Positions 32,423-56,765 of a stretch of 64,000 nucleotides of DNA are shown here, in pieces. A model generated the notes under the pieces. That model had not been told where the DNA came from, did no database searches, and was given only the letters and a program-made list of their open reading frames with translations. The DNA lies in assembly GCF_027912835.1 (NCBI RefSeq), contig NZ_CP115768.1:930001-994000 (forward strand), read 5' to 3'. Position 1 is the first letter of the stretch. Each line of letters begins with the position of its first letter. The DNA comes from Paracoccus sediminicola (GTDB lineage: Bacteria > Pseudomonadota > Alphaproteobacteria > Rhodobacterales > Rhodobacteraceae). A program made the translations under genes and the position numbers.

Positions 32423-32516
32423 GGAAGAGCGACATTCCCGGTGGGGTGCCCGGACTTCAAATCCGGAGGGGGGCGCGCGGCGTCTCCGGTGGGTTCGACT
32501 CCCGCCTCTTCCGCCA
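32423..32516 (+). tRNA. selC: tRNA-Sec (anticodon TCA)
   Basis: 94-nt RNA with anticodon TCA at 32457-32459 in loop CTTCAAA, a 6-bp D stem (CATTCC/GGGGTG) with 4-nt loop, a 7-bp long variable arm, T loop TTCGACT, G73 and encoded CCA. These are hallmarks of selenocysteine tRNA. The acceptor stem shows only 7 strict pairs (GGAAGAG/CTCTTCC) plus a 5-bp T stem, where E. coli has 8+5. It indicates that the organism makes selenoproteins; selA/selB must lie elsewhere. Confidence 0.93.
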
Positions 32517-49369: not shown

Positions 49370-49853
49370 ATCAACCTCCCTGTCGATTTTTCGACCCGCG
49401 CGCACACACCCTCCGGCCCGGCGGCGCGCCGTTTACCCAAAGCCAGTTGGCATCAGGAAGACTGTCTCCGTCAAGGGCAGGGTGCGGGGATGGATGGAAA
49501 TAGGGCGCGCGGGATATTGCCGGTGCGTGCGGCATGTCGGCAAAACCTTGGTGAATAAGATGGCGGTAGCGCGATTCTCACGAAAAGCCGGTCAGAAAGA
49601 CAGCCATCAGATCACTGACAGAAAATGTGCCAGGCCGCGTTAAGTCAGCTGCGGCGACACTTCGTTGAAGCCGGCTGGGGTAGACGCGGTGCTTCGCCTT
49701 ACCTCACGCTGCCGGGCCGGCCAGTGACGGACGAGGACGGTATCAACGCAATGCCTCCCCCTGTCTGCGCCACGGCGGTGAGCCGTCACTGCCAGAGGAT
49801 CCCGAGGGCGGGATTGGCTGAGCGTCAATCTATAAGATAGAAGTTAATGATTA
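49370..49853. other. 484-nt host intergenic region left of the island
   Basis: Upstream of the system 2 binding protein and before the left attachment repeat. It has host-like GC content. No open frame here has family features, codon periodicity or a ribosome site that I trust. It should contain the promoter of the system 2 operon, but I cannot place it. Confidence 0.5.
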
Positions 49854-49871
49854 ATGGCGGAGACGAAGGGA
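49854..49871. other. Distal attachment repeat of the island
   Basis: 18-bp direct copy of the tRNA-Ser 3' end. Sequence then diverges (GGCTCC here, TTCGAA in the tRNA), as expected for the distal att site. Confidence 0.85.
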
Positions 49872-50448
49872 GGCTCCACCACAAATCTAAGCCTTTGACT
49901 TAACTGGACATACAAGAGCGAAGGTTGCTCGTGTGTCTCACTTTGTGTGCCACTGTGTAGCCCGGATGTTTCGGAAAAGTCAAAGGTATCTGTTTGGGTA
50001 ACCGGAGAAGGTTTTATCCATGGTTTCAGCTTAAGTGTCCGAAAAGTATAAATATTCTTGGATGTAGGTGGATGTGATATTGGTTTTTGGATTGCGTGTT
50101 TGGAAGCTGGATACATCGAAGATTGAGATGAAGCAGGAAGGCAATCGGTTTTGAATATATATTGTAAGATATTGATTATAAATGATTTAATAAAGCAGAT
50201 GATTGATTATCTGGCCAGACAGATACTGCATGGCCTTCTGTCCTATAGGTGGCGCGATAGATTTATCTCATGGAAACAAGAGGATGGCTTAAGGCGGCAG
50301 CGAACACCGTACAACCTCTTGTCCTATAGTATCGGGGAGTGCTTTCGGGACGCATCGGCTTGTTGCAAGGCTGTGTCGGCTGTTAGGCTAGTTATGATGG
50401 AAAACAGATAGATACCGGACGCCGGGACGTTCGTCCGGGGCAAGTTGG
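49872..50448. other. AT-rich left flank of the island, no convincing gene
   Basis: 577 nt with clearly lower GC than the host. Two short open frames (49844-50116 minus, 50151-50411 plus with a TTG start) lack recognisable domains and ribosome sites. TGTCCTATAG is repeated directly at 50239-50248 and 50330-50339, 91 nt apart. Could contain integrase arm sites or a decayed gene. Confidence 0.5.
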
Positions 50449-51147
50449 TCAGGCTGAAAAAAGCCAACGCATAAGGCCGTAGACTGCCCCCAGCGCCACC
50501 CCTGCCATAGCGAAAAAGAACGCGACGACGATGGGAACGGCCCATATTTCATAGTAGCTGAGGACGCCCAGCCTCGGGACGACAAGTCCGAAAACAAACC
50601 CCGCCCCCGCGCCGCGCACGCCCCAGCGCGCGCCTGTGAAGATGATCGCCTGCAAGGCAGACCTCAGCGCGTCCTTGTTGGCTTCGATCTTCTCAAACCC
50701 GGCATGGTAGGTGTCTGTCAGAACGGACGGGGCATGGGGGAAAGTCCGGTGCGCTGCAGTAGTAGATTGGCCCTCGGAAAAATCTGCCGCAAAATCTTGA
50801 GAACGGTTCGTCTGGGCCTGCGCTTGTGACAGGTGCGCCATGTCCAAGCGCGTATCGCCACTGTCGATTGCGAAACCGCGTTGTCGGGCTTCGTCAATCC
50901 AAGGCAGTTGTTTGCCTTCAGTCATGCGGTTGGCCTTGTCTGTCGCGTATTCGATAGCTGCAACGTCCGTTTCAGGTGTTGAGTGCTTGGTGAACAACCG
51001 GGCGACTTTTCCGTTTGCCTCGTCTGTATTCGCTCCACTGTCCAGCAAGTCGAGAAAGTGAACCGCCCGGACAAACCTCTGAGCGCGGCGCTTGTTGGAG
51101 TACCAGACCAGCGCCGTCCCGATGCAGAGGATAACCACGATCCACAT
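50449..51147 (-). CDS. Island membrane protein of unknown function
   Basis: 232-aa protein with one N-terminal helix (MWIVVILCIGTALVWYS), a hydrophilic middle of about 130 residues, and two C-terminal helices (for example FVFGLVVPRLGVL and VVAFFFAMAGVALGAVYGLM). ATG 51147 follows GGAAGGG. I recognise no family. It lies at the far end of the island from the integrase and is divergent from the small XRE gene. An effector or envelope role linked to defence is only a guess. Confidence 0.6.
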   Translation of the reverse strand: MWIVVILCIGTALVWYSNKRRAQRFVRAVHFLDLLDSGANTDEANGKVARLFTKHSTPETDVAAIEYATDKANRMTEGKQLPWIDEARQRGFAIDSGDTRLDMAHLSQAQAQTNRSQDFAADFSEGQSTTAAHRTFPHAPSVLTDTYHAGFEKIEANKDALRSALQAIIFTGARWGVRGAGAGFVFGLVVPRLGVLSYYEIWAVPIVVAFFFAMAGVALGAVYGLMRWLFSA

Positions 51148-51256
51148 ATGAAGCCCTTCCAATCCGACGACCGCCCTCGGCCCCAACGGCCCGGATAGCC
51201 TGATTATCCTAAGTTGGGATTACCCGACTGCCTGCACCCGATCAACAGGCAGTCAC

Positions 51257-51511
51257 TTGAGCAAGACCCTTCGCACACCGGAACACGTCTACCTGTGCCA
51301 GCGGCTTAGGCAGGTGCGCGTTGATGCGGGGCTGACCCAAGCGGACTTGGCCGAACGGCTGCACAAGCCGCAATCCTTCGTGGCGAAGGTCGAGACGCAG
51401 GAACGCAGGCTCGACGTGATCGAGTTCGCCAAGTGGATGGCAGCCTGCGACGGCTTGGACGCGGTGTCGGAGATCGTGGCGACCATAGCAAAAGGGCAGG
51501 CCGACGCCTGA
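51257..51511 (+). CDS. Small XRE-family HTH regulator
   Basis: 84-aa single HTH_3 domain: RLRQVRVDAGLTQADLAERL, then KPQSFVAKVETQERRLDVIEF as recognition helix region. Start appears to be TTG at 51257. Divergent from the membrane protein gene with a 109-nt gap, so it may repress it or the island genes. Confidence 0.75.
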   Translation: MSKTLRTPEHVYLCQRLRQVRVDAGLTQADLAERLHKPQSFVAKVETQERRLDVIEFAKWMAACDGLDAVSEIVATIAKGQADA

Positions 51512-51572
51512 ACGCGATTTCCGGGCGTGTGAGGCTCGTTGTGGTTTTTCGGTCGCCATACCAAACCAGAGT

Positions 51573-51803
51573 ATGACTAGGCCGCTCGCCGCTTGGGCTG
51601 CCGACTACAACACCGAGCGTCCGCATTCGGCCTTGGGCTACCAGACCCCGGCTGACTACGCACGGGCCCTGACCACCGCAATCGCCCGCCCCGCTGCGCG
51701 AGATGAAAGCTCCGCGCGTCGGGCGATTGCTCAACCTGCGCCAATCGGCATAAACACTAACCGGGCTCCGGTCGCGGCTGGATGAAAGTTCAGCGGTAGG
51801 TCA
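51573..51803 (+). pseudogene. IS3-family transposase C-terminal remnant with right end
   Basis: The reading frame encodes the end of an IS3 OrfB integrase: WAADYNTERPHSALGYQTPADYA is the conserved tail (key NTERPHSALGYQTP). The rest of OrfB, including the DDE core, and OrfA are missing. The stop is at 51785 and GGTAGGTCA at 51795-51803 looks like the right terminal repeat (IS3 members often begin TGACCT). A left end was not found. Confidence 0.8.
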
Positions 51804-51976
51804 GAAAAGCTTCAATGCTCTGCCAAGTCGCAGGGCCACGCCCTTGGGCGGAAGGGACAATGTGGGAAACTGCGGCCTTGTCGGTGAAGAAATGACCGCT
51901 CAAAAAATCCGGCTCATTTTCCAGCGGTCCGGAAAACTCGAAAACTACTCAGCACGCAAGACTTCCGTCGATATAC

Positions 51977-54058
51977 CTATACAGCCTGCTGAAGCCATTC
52001 CCTTTCAAAGTCCGAGAGTTGCGATGTTGGGGATTGGCACTCGTCCAATAGCCGTGCCCTAAGTCTAGGCTTATCGTCGCCTTCGACGTAGTAGCGTTCA
52101 GATATCTGTATTGGAACACCTTCCTCATCTAGCTCCTTAAGAACTTCAGGGCGGAACCAACTGGCGACACTTCCAAGGAATAGGCTGTAGTCAGCTTGCG
52201 GGGCGACTTGACGAACGAAAAGTTCCACAAGCGCGAAGTTCTGAGGTAAGCCATATTCACATGCTCTGAGGAACTTAAAGATGTTGTCTTGTTCTTCGGG
52301 CTTGCCGGGGTAGCTCGCGTCTTGGGTTAGCAAAAAGCCTTTAAAGGACGATGCTTGTCTGAGCTTATTGATAAGCGTGGCAAGTTGCTTTGTGCTGTAT
52401 GCTCCAAATGCGCCAACCTTTTGCGGCTCACAGAAAACGTCGCATACTTCCTTTATTTCTGGCCAACTTGGCCAGTTGCTCCATATCAGCCGATCACTTT
52501 GCCTCAAAGACCGACGAACTGCCTCTTTTATCAGTATCGACGTCTCAAGTCCAATCGAAGACGCAAGTTTTAAGTCATCGCCGTCGAGTTCAAGTCGATC
52601 TCTATAGTAACGGAACCGGTCGTCTGACCGGTCTGAGCGATCAGGTTTATCAATGTGTATGATGTATTCATCAGGAAAGTCATCATCATCTGAGAACATG
52701 GTGGGGTTAACTTCGAGTTCGGTTTGCTCAGGCACATCATTGAAGACCATAACTTGTCCGATATGATGTTGCCCGAGACGACCCGCACGCCCTCTAATGT
52801 TCGAGAACGTAAAAAAGTCATAACTGTCGCGATTGATTGTCTTGTCATAGATCATGACGGTTTTCGCAGCAGTGTTTACGCCTTCGATCAGAGTTGAGGT
52901 ACATAGCAAAACTGGCAGCTTTTCTTGATTAAATAATCTGACCATATGTGCCGCAATGGCACGAGGTATGCGCCCATGGTGGACACCAAACCCATATTCA
53001 ACAGCCTCAGAGAGGAAGTTCTTTCTTCCGATGTTTTCCTTGAGCCAAGCTGAAAAGTCTCCGCTCAGTTCGGAGACAGCCATCTTTTCGGATAGTTCGA
53101 TAGCCAGCTTGTTCGCCTTTCCCGGTGATGAAACAAAAACGAGAGCAGGCCAGTTCTTGTCTTCGCCAATCTCGTCAATCAACCGTCCACGTTTGTCAGC
53201 AATATCTTTAAGGTCGAGAGTGTCTACTGCGACCGTTGAAAAACGTGTTTTGAGAAACTCGAAGTTCCATCGCGCATCCGGCGCGACAGAAACCTTATCA
53301 ATGTTTGGTCCCAAAAAGAAGAACTGCTTTGAACGCTTGAGTAGTCGATACACTGCCGCATTAAGCGTAACGCTGCGGTCATCACGCCTTGCAGGATCAA
53401 GTTTATAGAACTCGTCAACAACTGTTAGGTCTAAACGTCCCAAGTCTTCGCGATAGATTAGTCTCTCTTGTGTCCCGAGGAATATGGTGGGCCCGTCTGA
53501 TGAAGTTTCGCTTTGGTGCATCACGATATTGAACCTGTCTGCAAAGCGATGACGAAAGCGCCGCCGGAACTCGTCAAGAAGCGCGATGGTTGGCAGTACC
53601 ACTGCAATGCGTTGATACTTGTTTGTAGCAAGCAATGCATCGACAAGTAGGCTCTTGCCGAAACTTGTAGGCGCACTGAGAATAAGGTTGCGCCCGGAAA
53701 GCAGTGCATCCAATGCGTTTATCTGTTCACGATGAAAAGTTACGCCATCAAGCTCATATGCTGTTGCGGCCTCGGCTACAAAGGCATCGCTTGCATCAGC
53801 GTTTTTGATATCAATGTAGTTCCATAAGCCCGTCGATCTTGCCAACGAACTGACCAACTGCTGAAACGCGCCAAGTTCTTGTGGGTTTCGGCCAACTAGC
53901 TCAGAAAGCCGAGGCACCGCTTCAAGTAACGAGGGATCATCAGTCTGCGTGCTTTGAATGCAGAAAGCCGCCTGCTGAATGGTCTTAAAGGTGGCGCGCT
54001 TTAGTTCCGCACCTTTGAGTGCGTTTAGAGCATTCCAGTCAACCTCAAGTTTAGACAT
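51977..54058 (-). CDS. hamB: Hachiman defence helicase HamB
   Basis: 693-aa superfamily 2 helicase. Walker A APTSFGKS (129-136), Walker B DEFY (215-218) in LTVVDEFYKL in place of DEAD/DEAH, motif IV-V TSTLIEGVNTAAKTVMIYD, motif VI RGRAGRLGQ. The C-terminal third (from about 480) is a helical region specific to HamB. The gene directly follows hamA (9 nt), the standard two-gene Hachiman layout. HamB is thought to sense phage DNA damage or ends and restrain HamA until activated. Base composition is clearly lower in GC than the host. Confidence 0.9.
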   Translation of the reverse strand: MSKLEVDWNALNALKGAELKRATFKTIQQAAFCIQSTQTDDPSLLEAVPRLSELVGRNPQELGAFQQLVSSLARSTGLWNYIDIKNADASDAFVAEAATAYELDGVTFHREQINALDALLSGRNLILSAPTSFGKSLLVDALLATNKYQRIAVVLPTIALLDEFRRRFRHRFADRFNIVMHQSETSSDGPTIFLGTQERLIYREDLGRLDLTVVDEFYKLDPARRDDRSVTLNAAVYRLLKRSKQFFFLGPNIDKVSVAPDARWNFEFLKTRFSTVAVDTLDLKDIADKRGRLIDEIGEDKNWPALVFVSSPGKANKLAIELSEKMAVSELSGDFSAWLKENIGRKNFLSEAVEYGFGVHHGRIPRAIAAHMVRLFNQEKLPVLLCTSTLIEGVNTAAKTVMIYDKTINRDSYDFFTFSNIRGRAGRLGQHHIGQVMVFNDVPEQTELEVNPTMFSDDDDFPDEYIIHIDKPDRSDRSDDRFRYYRDRLELDGDDLKLASSIGLETSILIKEAVRRSLRQSDRLIWSNWPSWPEIKEVCDVFCEPQKVGAFGAYSTKQLATLINKLRQASSFKGFLLTQDASYPGKPEEQDNIFKFLRACEYGLPQNFALVELFVRQVAPQADYSLFLGSVASWFRPEVLKELDEEGVPIQISERYYVEGDDKPRLRARLLDECQSPTSQLSDFEREWLQQAV

Positions 54059-54067
54059 GTTCTTGCC

Positions 54068-54919
54068 CTACTGTTGAAGTGCTTTGAGGCGATTGTCGAA
54101 AGCAGTGTTGAGCTTGTCTTTGTCTCCTAACGGGACATAGATGAGCCTCACCTTGATCTTTTTCGTCAATCCAGATGCTTTGAGTGTTTCCCAAAGAGTT
54201 GCCATCTCTTTCGCTGCCCCCGTTTTGTATTTTTCGCAGGGCTCAGTGTTCTTTTTCGTTGCACCACTGTTTGCTGCGATGAGTACCGGGAAAACAGCAT
54301 TGCTAAAGAGTTCATCAAGAGAGGTTTCGGAGGCTAGCAGCTCTTTGATCTTTGCACTGTGCGGAATGTCGTCCGAGACTTGTGGACCCAGTAGCAACTT
54401 TTCGTTCTTTAAGAAGCCTGCGGTTATATGACTTTCAATAGACGTAATGGCGTCATTTATGGCGCTACTGCGTGTCTTGAAAAACTTAGCCTCACCTAAC
54501 CACAGTTCTATGTCTCCATCGTTGACGTAGCGGACATGAACTAGATCGAATGCTTTCACCGGATCATTTGATGCGCTTAAGTAGTTCACTCGCGCAGCAA
54601 TAGGTATCGTGTCAAAGTAAGTTCTACAAATCGCATGTGCTGCAATCTCACCAACTTCTCCACGGCGTTTGTAGTTTTCGCTTATGTAAACACGTGTAGC
54701 TGCCTGCTTAAGACGCACGTAGTTATTTGTGTGATTGCTGTTTCGCAGTTCATCTGACTTCAGCGCATAGTCAGTAATCCACTCCATAAGATTGTCAGCA
54801 AGCCCATCGCAGCGCCATTCACTGAGTTCAAAACCAGCGCAATAGCTTTCAGATGACTCATCAGCTTCCGTCAGGCGTGTTAGAACGCACGCTGGTTTCA
54901 GCTTGTATGGATGCGACAT
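54068..54919 (-). CDS. hamA: Hachiman defence protein HamA (DUF1837)
   Basis: 283-aa DUF1837 protein with the nuclease-like core of HamA: RRGEVGE (85-91), an acidic residue in VKAFDLVHV (Asp125) and LGEAKFF (Glu143, Lys145), arranged as a PD-(D/E)xK site. The known family cleaves DNA indiscriminately when released by HamB, giving abortive protection. It starts 115 nt downstream of the integrase stop on the same strand and is followed at once by hamB. Confidence 0.9.
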   Translation of the reverse strand: MSHPYKLKPACVLTRLTEADESSESYCAGFELSEWRCDGLADNLMEWITDYALKSDELRNSNHTNNYVRLKQAATRVYISENYKRRGEVGEIAAHAICRTYFDTIPIAARVNYLSASNDPVKAFDLVHVRYVNDGDIELWLGEAKFFKTRSSAINDAITSIESHITAGFLKNEKLLLGPQVSDDIPHSAKIKELLASETSLDELFSNAVFPVLIAANSGATKKNTEPCEKYKTGAAKEMATLWETLKASGLTKKIKVRLIYVPLGDKDKLNTAFDNRLKALQQ

Positions 54920-55034
54920 GCCGATATCTGCTCATTATTGTTTGTTGTCGATAATGCTTCTGTCGAGACTACATCGCAACACCTTTGAGTTGTAGTGATG
55001 CGAAGTAGCACAAGACACCACCGTACTTTGCGCC

Positions 55035-56609
55035 CTATGCAATGAACTTCTCAAGGGCCTCCTGCTTCTGTGCCAGCGTGTGCCCTTCCTTGAAATAGAC
55101 CTGTTGCGCCACGCCTGCGCGTTCGTGGCCCACGATGTCCTGAAACAGCGGCTCGGGCACACCTGCTTGCGCAAGCCGCGTAACCATCGTGTGGCGCAGG
55201 CTGTGGAACACCAGACCGCCCTCCTTCATGCCCAGCCCCGGCAAGAGCACGTTGTTGAACCGGCGACCCAAGTTGCGGCCATAGCCCTCCTTGGCATTGT
55301 AGCTGAACGATAGGAATAGCCGCTGATCCTTAGGCTTGCTCCCGACCCAATCGAGGAAGCCCAGCCCGATCAGGTCCGAGTGGATTGGCACGCGGCGCTT
55401 GGCGGCAGGGGTTTTGAGGCTCTTGTTTGGCCCGTCATCATTGATATCGAGGTACCAGATATCGCCTTCTTGTCGAATGTCGGCGACGTCAAGCTGGGCA
55501 ATCTCGCGCAGTCTTGCGCCCGTGTAGAGGCCCAGAAGCGCACCCCACTTGTGATCGTCCTCCTTCACAAACCCCGACGTGTTCTCAGTCAGTTCTTGGA
55601 ACAGTCGCTTGGTTTGGGCTGGCGAGAATGCCTTGCGTCCGTCATCCGGCTTTTTCCGCGCCTTGATCTTCATTTCTTCAAATAGCTTCTCGGTGGCTAC
55701 ACCATGCGTGACGGCCCATTTCCAGAAGCGATAGAACATGGCCATATGATTATTCACCGTCTCAACAGATACCTTCTTCATTCCCGGCACTTCTATCGCC
55801 TCAAGAAGCGGTAAGTCTTTCGTTTCATTCTTGGTTTTCCGATTGAGCGGCAGGGACTGCACCACCTTTTTGACTTCGGCAGCGTCATGGCGAGTTATTT
55901 CCGCCATCCTACGATCCGGCCCGAAATACTCCAACAGCACAGACAAGAAAGCTCTCGCCTTCGCGGCCATCTGGTCAGACCATTGCGGCTCAGCCATGAA
56001 GTCCTCGATTGCCTCTCCCAGAGACGCGGAGCGGGCCTGTGGTGGCCTTGGCGCTGTCTGGGCGGGTTCGGTGAAGGAATAGCCCTCAAGGCGCTCAGCG
56101 GCGCTCAGAATGGCTTTGATCTGATCCCGGCGGGCCTTGCGCATTTCTTGGCGCAGGGCTGGCTCATTTTCGGTCCACTGAGCCTCTGTGAGGCCCGTTG
56201 AGGCCCGGAAGCTGTCAAAGGTGCCTGCATCAAGGTAGAGGTCTGACAAGTCGTCAAAGCCGCCTATGGCGTCCTCATGCACGTCCAACTCTTGGCGCAG
56301 GGTATCAAGGGACCGCTCAGACAGCCCGGTATCGTTCAAACGCTCCACATACCGATCCAGCGAAGCCGCAAAGTAGCTTCGCACCATATCCCGCATCTCG
56401 TCTTGTCTGAGCCTAGCCAAAGTCTTGTTCTCGCGCATCAATCTGCCACAGGATGCAAGATGACGGGCAAGATCGCCAGCCCGATCTGGGCACTTTGTGC
56501 GTAAGGATATTCTGACTGTGCGGCGCTTCTGGTTCTCAGCCCGAGGGAGAGGCCAACGGAAGTAGTAGACCCCGTGACGTGATGGCGAAAGATAGGCGGA
56601 CAGTTTCAT
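55035..56609 (-). CDS. Tyrosine recombinase (island integrase)
   Basis: 524-aa site-specific recombinase. Start MKLSAYLSPSRHGVYYFRWPL at 56609; catalytic residues in TGARLREI (Arg), HSLRHTM (His-x-x-Arg) and GHERAGVAQQVYF (His and nucleophile Tyr). A long N-terminal half (about 1-190) precedes the core-binding region, which starts near EAIEDFMAEP. It lies 66 nt from tRNA-Ser, its presumed attachment site, and points away from it. An upstream in-frame start at 56648 would add 13 residues. Confidence 0.93.
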   Translation of the reverse strand: MKLSAYLSPSRHGVYYFRWPLPRAENQKRRTVRISLRTKCPDRAGDLARHLASCGRLMRENKTLARLRQDEMRDMVRSYFAASLDRYVERLNDTGLSERSLDTLRQELDVHEDAIGGFDDLSDLYLDAGTFDSFRASTGLTEAQWTENEPALRQEMRKARRDQIKAILSAAERLEGYSFTEPAQTAPRPPQARSASLGEAIEDFMAEPQWSDQMAAKARAFLSVLLEYFGPDRRMAEITRHDAAEVKKVVQSLPLNRKTKNETKDLPLLEAIEVPGMKKVSVETVNNHMAMFYRFWKWAVTHGVATEKLFEEMKIKARKKPDDGRKAFSPAQTKRLFQELTENTSGFVKEDDHKWGALLGLYTGARLREIAQLDVADIRQEGDIWYLDINDDGPNKSLKTPAAKRRVPIHSDLIGLGFLDWVGSKPKDQRLFLSFSYNAKEGYGRNLGRRFNNVLLPGLGMKEGGLVFHSLRHTMVTRLAQAGVPEPLFQDIVGHERAGVAQQVYFKEGHTLAQKQEALEKFIA

Positions 56610-56674
56610 GGGCGGTGCGCTCCACTTTGTGTCGCACTTGCCTGTCAAGACCTAAGCCATTGTTTTAGTGTGTT

Positions 56675-56692
56675 ATGGCGGAGACGAAGGGA
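56675..56692. other. tRNA-proximal attachment repeat
   Basis: Overlaps the 3' end of tRNA-Ser; identical for 18 bp to 49854-49871. The tRNA remains complete, so integration regenerates the gene. Confidence 0.85.
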
Positions 56693-56765
56693 TTCGAACC
56701 CTCGATACCATCTCTGGTATACTCCCTTAGCAGGGGAGCGCCTTCGACCACTCGGCCACGTCTCC
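56676..56765 (-). tRNA. tRNA-Ser (anticodon GCT)
   Basis: 90-nt type II tRNA: acceptor GGAGACG/CGTCTCC, G73, encoded CCA, D arm TGGCCGAGTGG, anticodon loop CTGCTAA (GCT), long variable arm (TATACCAGAGATGGTATC region) and T loop GTTCGAATC. It reads AGC/AGT and serves as the island's insertion site. Confidence 0.97.

Follow-up and report, generated by a model that had tools for sequence, protein, structure and literature searches.

The window analysed here is a 64,000-nucleotide stretch of Paracoccus sediminicola (contig NZ_CP115768.1, positions 930,001 to 994,000), and our subject is an island within it that places a tyrosine integrase gene and a hamA-hamB pair, predicted to encode the anti-phage system Hachiman, at the 3′ end of a tRNA-Ser(GCT) gene. 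The island spans positions 49854-56692 of the window (6,839 bp) and is bracketed by exact 18-bp direct repeats. The integrase-side core repeat (56675..56692) overlaps the 3′ end of the tRNA gene (56676..56765, minus strand), which was called by ARAGORN and matches Rfam family RF00005, and the distal core repeat lies at 49854..49871; the right-hand copy is itself the tRNA 3′ end, and the element lies between two copies of that end. When 17 of the core bases were sought with up to two mismatches, they occurred at two places only in the window, both of them the repeats, compared with 0.02 expected in shuffled sequence, and the boundaries given in the original prediction, which had been made from the letters alone, therefore stand. 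The prediction also held the ham genes to be lower in guanine-cytosine (GC) content than everything around them. At 46.4% (hamA) and 48.3% (hamB) they do fall below the whole island (52.4%) and the remainder of the window (65.4%), but the claim goes too far, as GC content is only 44-46% at the island's left end (blocks 49,750-50,499). The host genome (3.53 Mb, 7 contigs) contains a single match to the HamA of the window.

The integrase gene (55035..56609, minus strand) begins adjacent to the tRNA and is complete, as predicted: its reading frame is open over 524 codons (about 523 residues), and the product scores above the cut-off for PF00589, matches a PHROG integrase family and contains the catalytic segments of this class of enzyme. 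Translation probably starts at the ATG at 56609, since relatives begin with MKLSA(Y/F)LS at that point. Next on the same strand are hamA (54068..54919), encoding a predicted nuclease subunit of 283 residues, and hamB (51977..54058), encoding a predicted Ski2-like helicase subunit of 693 residues, both of them open and adjacent to each other. The assignment to Hachiman, which had been proposed from DUF1837 and helicase motifs, is borne out by profile searches: HamA scores 150.9 bits against PF08878 (HamA/DUF1837; cut-off 25), its sole Pfam match, and 374 bits (E 9e-113) against the PADLOC HamA profile, and HamB scores 633 bits (E 1.8e-190) against the PADLOC HamB profile over residues 19-692, so that both proteins match Hachiman profiles over nearly their entire length. 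HamA residues D125, E143 and K145 are invariant in 21 homologues; judging from the E-x-K spacing rather than from a residue-by-residue alignment, E143 and K145 would be the equivalents of E138 and K140 in HamA of Escherichia coli ECOR31. The best solved folds for the HamA model are AbpA and HamA, although ECOR31 HamA was missed by a profile search of solved sequences and was found by fold only. HamB has a Walker A motif at residue 128, a motif II that reads DEFY, with the D-E pair kept, and a motif VI that reads RGRAGR. The locus thus has the features by which Hachiman is recognised, namely a DUF1837 HamA with its nuclease residues and an adjacent HamB on the same strand with its helicase motifs.

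Distal to hamB, the island contains a small XRE-like helix-turn-helix (HTH) regulator gene (51257..51511, plus strand; PF13560 and PF01381 above their cut-offs), which is kept in CCMM004, Thioclava SK-1 and genome G182, and a putative membrane-protein gene (50449..51147, minus strand; 232 residues). Long hydrophobic helices are predicted for the latter with low confidence (mean predicted local distance difference test score, pLDDT, of 61), and it has no match in Pfam, PADLOC, NCBIfam or PHROG. Relatives of this membrane protein are few: 33 proteins were listed in a search of 5.8 billion, the window's own included, and 9 of 394 genomes of the bacterial family have it, again counting the window's, 3 of them at 91% identity or more. 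Among the island open reading frames (ORFs) scanned, seven with Pfam, five with PADLOC and NCBIfam and three with PHROGs, no relaxase, packaging or replication gene was recognised.

A HamB search of genome contigs returned four loci (4 of 30 stretches matching a pattern). In CCMM004 (L037) the same element, 86-87% identical in nucleotide sequence along its length except for one insertion sequence (IS) segment, is inserted at tRNA-Ser(CGA), 17 bp of which are repeated at its two boundaries. The genes occur in the same order in Thioclava SK-1 (L038), where each end has a core of the Ser(GCT) type, though no tRNA is called in the 20-kb stretch. In both, therefore, the genes lie between flanking repeats, and the finding that would have spoken against the original prediction, the same genes in relatives without repeats, was not encountered there. 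Roseibium (L039, a stretch that stops just past hamB) and a Jannaschia contig (L040, 4.9 kb in its entirety) show the ham pair only, and G077, of the same genus as the window, has a 76% identical pair near tRNA-Asn without this integrase. The ham pair thus occurs apart from this element backbone as well.

Searching with the integrase at E 1e-60 or better identified matches in 28 of the 394 genomes, the window's included. From these we took 18 integrase regions, to which L037, L080 and the G015 site (L032) were added, and each of the 15 loci where ARAGORN called a tRNA was examined for a distal repeat. A repeat of 17-22 bp was present in 11 of the 15; L117, L124 and L133 are truncated where the contig or stretch stops, L032 holds another integrase, and L116, L118-L120, L131 and L132, in which ARAGORN called no tRNA, lay outside the test. 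Counting the window and L038, 13 bounded elements of 5.6-14.5 kb were obtained, all with the integrase at the same end, and their sites include tRNA-Cys and tRNA-Ala besides tRNA-Ser; the named relatives belong to the Paracoccaceae. The outer boundary of a possible fourteenth, L174 (G134), is doubtful because its distal repeat is only 14 bp and no distal arm motif is present (6 mismatches). In a tree of 19 integrases, which left out L118 (no full ORF under the filter) and L131-L133, and in which the tRNA labels of L038, L116, L119 and L120 came from reading the att sequence, the Ser, Cys and Ala groups require one change each (supports 100/99, 98/96 and 100/100) and the two Ser(CGA) integrases join at 100/100. 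By this tree, the integrase clade tracks the tRNA used. At L116 (611-10394, G425) an integrase 86% identical to that of the window accompanies a Ser(GCT)-type core with no tRNA called, and ORFs downstream with regularly repeated peptides and Cas1/Cas2-like proteins, read by eye, suggest a CRISPR locus. In L119, L120, L131 and L132, sequence near the integrase start resembles tRNA-Cys in its 3′ half, anticodon loop included, but no complete tRNA is called there; these are perhaps second elements in tandem behind another.

A further shared feature of the ends is the motif TGCGACACAAAGTG, which occurs in the window as a putative arm-type site on the integrase side (56623..56636, 39 nucleotides inside the core, the same position as in relatives) and, with 2 mismatches, on the distal side (49939..49952, about 82 nucleotides inside the core). 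In all 14 elements its best match is 38-40 nucleotides inward of the integrase-side core (0-5 mismatches), six of these matches (L080, L126-L130) being weak, with 4-5 mismatches and 0.04-0.27 of shuffles doing equally well; on the distal side the best match is 69-87 nucleotides from the core in 13 of 14 (1-4 mismatches) and is weak in L127-L130. The motif was chosen after viewing the window and is derived from it, hence the shuffle figures flatter it, and the constant spacing is the stronger point. These repeats inside the ends look like putative attP arm sites.

Comparison of the window with CCMM004 reveals a mosaic. Nucleotide identity is 74.7% in the integrase gene, 96.5% in the spacer between integrase and hamA, 98.0% in hamA, 92.3% in hamB, 89.4% in the HTH gene and 88.0% in the membrane-protein gene. 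In blocks of 100 columns a step near 55,100, inside the end of the integrase gene, takes identity from 69% (55,299-55,200) via 85% to 99% (55,099-55,000). The HTH and membrane-protein genes are also 90.4% and 90.5% identical in G182, where the integrase is only 49% identical at the amino acid level and the genes alongside are a different cargo, a type III restriction-modification system. Exchange of modules would leave such a pattern, whereas differences in rate alone would hardly produce so sharp a step. The mosaic is clearer evidence than GC content, from which the prediction had guessed at a separate origin of the ham genes, that these genes and the rest of the island differ in history, and it suggests that the HTH and membrane-protein genes form a separate backbone module found with other cargo too.

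The cargo of the relatives was examined by a PADLOC scan that covered part of the ORFs of each element. Of the 14 elements, 11 gave defence matches at E 1e-5 (10 of 13 if L174 is set aside); in a small control set, one of ten flanking host proteins matched, to an unrelated desaturase model. Hachiman is the cargo of the window, L037 and L038. Type III systems are represented in L080 (methylase, 7.3e-151, split by an IS; restriction subunit only 3.3e-09) and L174 (restriction subunit, 2.7e-138); L121 and L122 encode a methylase and a specificity subunit of type I, but no separate restriction subunit was recognised in them. L125 has a type II methylase, L126 a type II pair with EcoRII domains by Pfam, L129 a type II pair with a BamHI domain and L130 a HEC-04-like ATPase; there was no PADLOC match among the three proteins scanned in L123 or the one scanned in L128. 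The element in the window thus appears to be one member of a family of small immunity cartridges that can be interchanged. The 14.5-kb element L127 (568-15080, G454) seemingly encodes a cytochrome bd oxidase and related genes rather than defence, as judged by reading its ORFs, and has a truncated relative of the membrane protein at its far end. Three tRNA-Cys elements share a related protein of 463-483 residues that starts ...FDPQWTTD... (L121 3656-5068, L122 2317-3768, L123 14332-15723); it has a PADLOC match in none of the three and no Pfam match over the cut-off in the two that were scanned.

Occupancy of the site varies between relatives. A match to the tRNA-Ser(GCT) gene is present in 123 of 125 genomes of the genus, and HamA (PF08878) in 11 of the 125. 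Thirty tRNA-Ser(GCT) loci were compared, these being the closest matches, the window (L146) included, and not a random sample. An integrase-like match lies downstream in seven: in addition to the window, L148 (G134) has an integrase of the same family (68%) together with a type III restriction enzyme, and L145, L149, L161, L162 and L173 best match other integrases, some of them weakly. No downstream match to this integrase panel was found in the other 23, one of which, L167, is without downstream sequence. As for the comparison with relatives that have an empty tRNA-Ser site, proposed as a check of the original prediction, an integrase of this kind is present in some related genomes and missing from the same site in others; no joined empty site turned up among the relatives examined, because the left flank, an ABC transporter operon, does not lie beside this tRNA in them. 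Homologues of that operon (75-86% identity, seven genomes, L042-L048) were tried as a route to the joined site and rejected: they align only inside the coding region and no tRNA occurs in the stretches, so that, in the genomes seen, the left flank was not an ancestral neighbour of this tRNA gene. A different defence-like island occupies the same tRNA-Ser(GCT) in a sister species (G015, L032 2652-14856): behind another, broken integrase gene come large genes of helicase-like and phospholipase-D-like type, which have partial matches to PADLOC models (GajB, DrmD and others).

The very probable reading of these data is that the island is an integrase-only integrative element carrying a Hachiman anti-phage module as cargo. 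The integrase would bind the arm-like repeats and recombine the 17-18-bp core with the 3′ end of the tRNA gene, thereby rebuilding the tRNA, and excision would be the reverse of this reaction. In characterised HamAB, the helicase senses DNA ends and HamA is released, all DNA is degraded and the outcome is abortive infection (PMC12278908). By homology and from the conserved residues, HamA and HamB may likewise form a nuclease-helicase complex here, in which HamB would sense aberrant DNA ends or single strands arising from phage replication and free HamA, which would then degrade phage and host DNA and stop infection at the cost of the cell. Several observations weigh against this reading: neither a joined empty site nor an excised circle was seen, and none of the relatives examined has the left flank beside this tRNA; no gene for cell-to-cell transfer was recognised in the island; the arm motif was picked post hoc from the window, and in L080 and L126-L130 at least one of its two matches is weak; and motif II of HamB is DEFY, as in AbpB, and not DEGH.

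Among the alternatives, the one that fares best, though we consider it somewhat doubtful, is that the repeats are old scars and that hamAB arrived later, by homologous recombination or another route, in an existing tRNA island rather than by means of the integrase. The contrast between hamA and the integrase in identity to CCMM004, with its sharp step, speaks for this, as does the G077 pair without this integrase. However, the order int-hamA-hamB-HTH-membrane protein is common to three elements at different sites, so that the present unit has, on some occasions at least, moved as a whole; where the cargo's longer history is concerned, a late arrival of ham is compatible with an integrase-only element that carries Hachiman.

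It is unlikely that the defence pair is better filed as AbpAB-type than as Hachiman proper. HamB is nearer to AbpB than to ECOR31 HamB (PDB 8VX9, 8VXY; PMC12278908), which it matches by sequence only at E 4e-6, and is much shorter than the 1,174 residues of the PDB chain; its motif II is DEFY where that protein has DEGH. In comparison with E. coli K-12 AbpAB (PDB 8ZUE; PMC10732053), however, HamA here has no Cap4 nuclease fused ahead of the HamA domain and keeps the nuclease residues lost in AbpA, reading WLGEAKF where the inactive domain of AbpA has WIGFSEL, and PADLOC-DB labels both proteins Hachiman. A HamA tree places AbpA on the side of the window, but its branch is very long and leaves from an unresolved fork, and we did not use this as proof. 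AbpAB is counted as a Hachiman variant in PMC12278908 and a direct equivalence was doubted in PMC10732053, hence the two names may not exclude each other. We class the pair as Hachiman with a short HamB, an active-looking HamA and no fused Cap4.

We also regard as improbable the proposal that a larger prophage, satellite or integrative conjugative element decayed to leave this island, which would no longer be mobile and in which selection would have kept ham. The lack of recognised transfer, packaging or replication genes would fit decay, as would broken integrase genes in several relatives and an IS3-family remnant (51586..51803; 98.6% identical to a gene annotated as IS3 transposase on a plasmid of Frigidibacter), absent from CCMM004, that has replaced about 260 bp of the CCMM004 version. 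Yet the window has an intact integrase and two intact cores, and the uniformly small size and constant integrase position of the 13 elements with matching ends are not easily the result of independent decay. Capture from a virus was rejected, as single-protein queries of viral contigs with the membrane protein, the integrase and HamB, which reach close relatives only, returned no relative, and the integrase matches seven phage records, all partially and at 30-35% identity.

As an integrase-only element with Hachiman cargo, the island belongs to a kind already known. E. coli integrase-only defence islands likewise consist of an integrase and defence genes with no other known mobility gene, some of them with Hachiman, and their transfer is unexplained (PMC10121019); the elements described here differ in that their hosts belong to another order and that they can be seen to form a family whose ends are shared, whose integrase clades are tRNA-specific and whose modules are exchanged. 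Integration at tRNA genes and defence cargo are also features of integrative mobilizable elements and phage satellites (see also PMC10121019), but no relaxase, packaging or replication gene was recognised in this island. We found no description of such an element family in this bacterial group in search listings of the open-licence literature, and within those bounds the family appears to be new. A broader proposal, which we put forward tentatively and rate a little short of even, is that this is an undescribed modular alphaproteobacterial family, in which recombination exchanges three modules, the first being a tRNA-specific integrase together with its end, the second the immunity cargo in the centre and the third the distal pair of HTH and membrane-protein genes; if so, an immunity system could reach a new tRNA site by a swap of the integrase module alone. 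How integrase-only defence islands spread is an open question in print (PMC10121019), and this family, whose ends are defined, whose integrase clades are site-specific and in which cargo exchange can be seen, makes the question testable. The ham pair also bears on why AbpAB, which is activated by phage single-strand-binding protein or DNA damage (PMC10732053), has an inactive HamA domain, called enigmatic in PMC12278908, since it is close to AbpAB with an active-looking HamA and no Cap4.

Under the same broader proposal, the membrane protein could supply the maintenance or transfer function that some integrase-only islands seem to lack. A relative is encoded on a 4,689-bp plasmid of Thioclava sp. 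FTW29 (L177 2737-3420), beside BrnT, CopG and replication genes. A promoter scan gave 4 sites compared with 4.7 expected in shuffles, and in the Rfam scan the tRNA alone reached the gathering score, with one sub-threshold match to a plastid untranslated region overlapping it. Elsewhere in the window, ARAGORN called a selenocysteine tRNA at 32423-32516.

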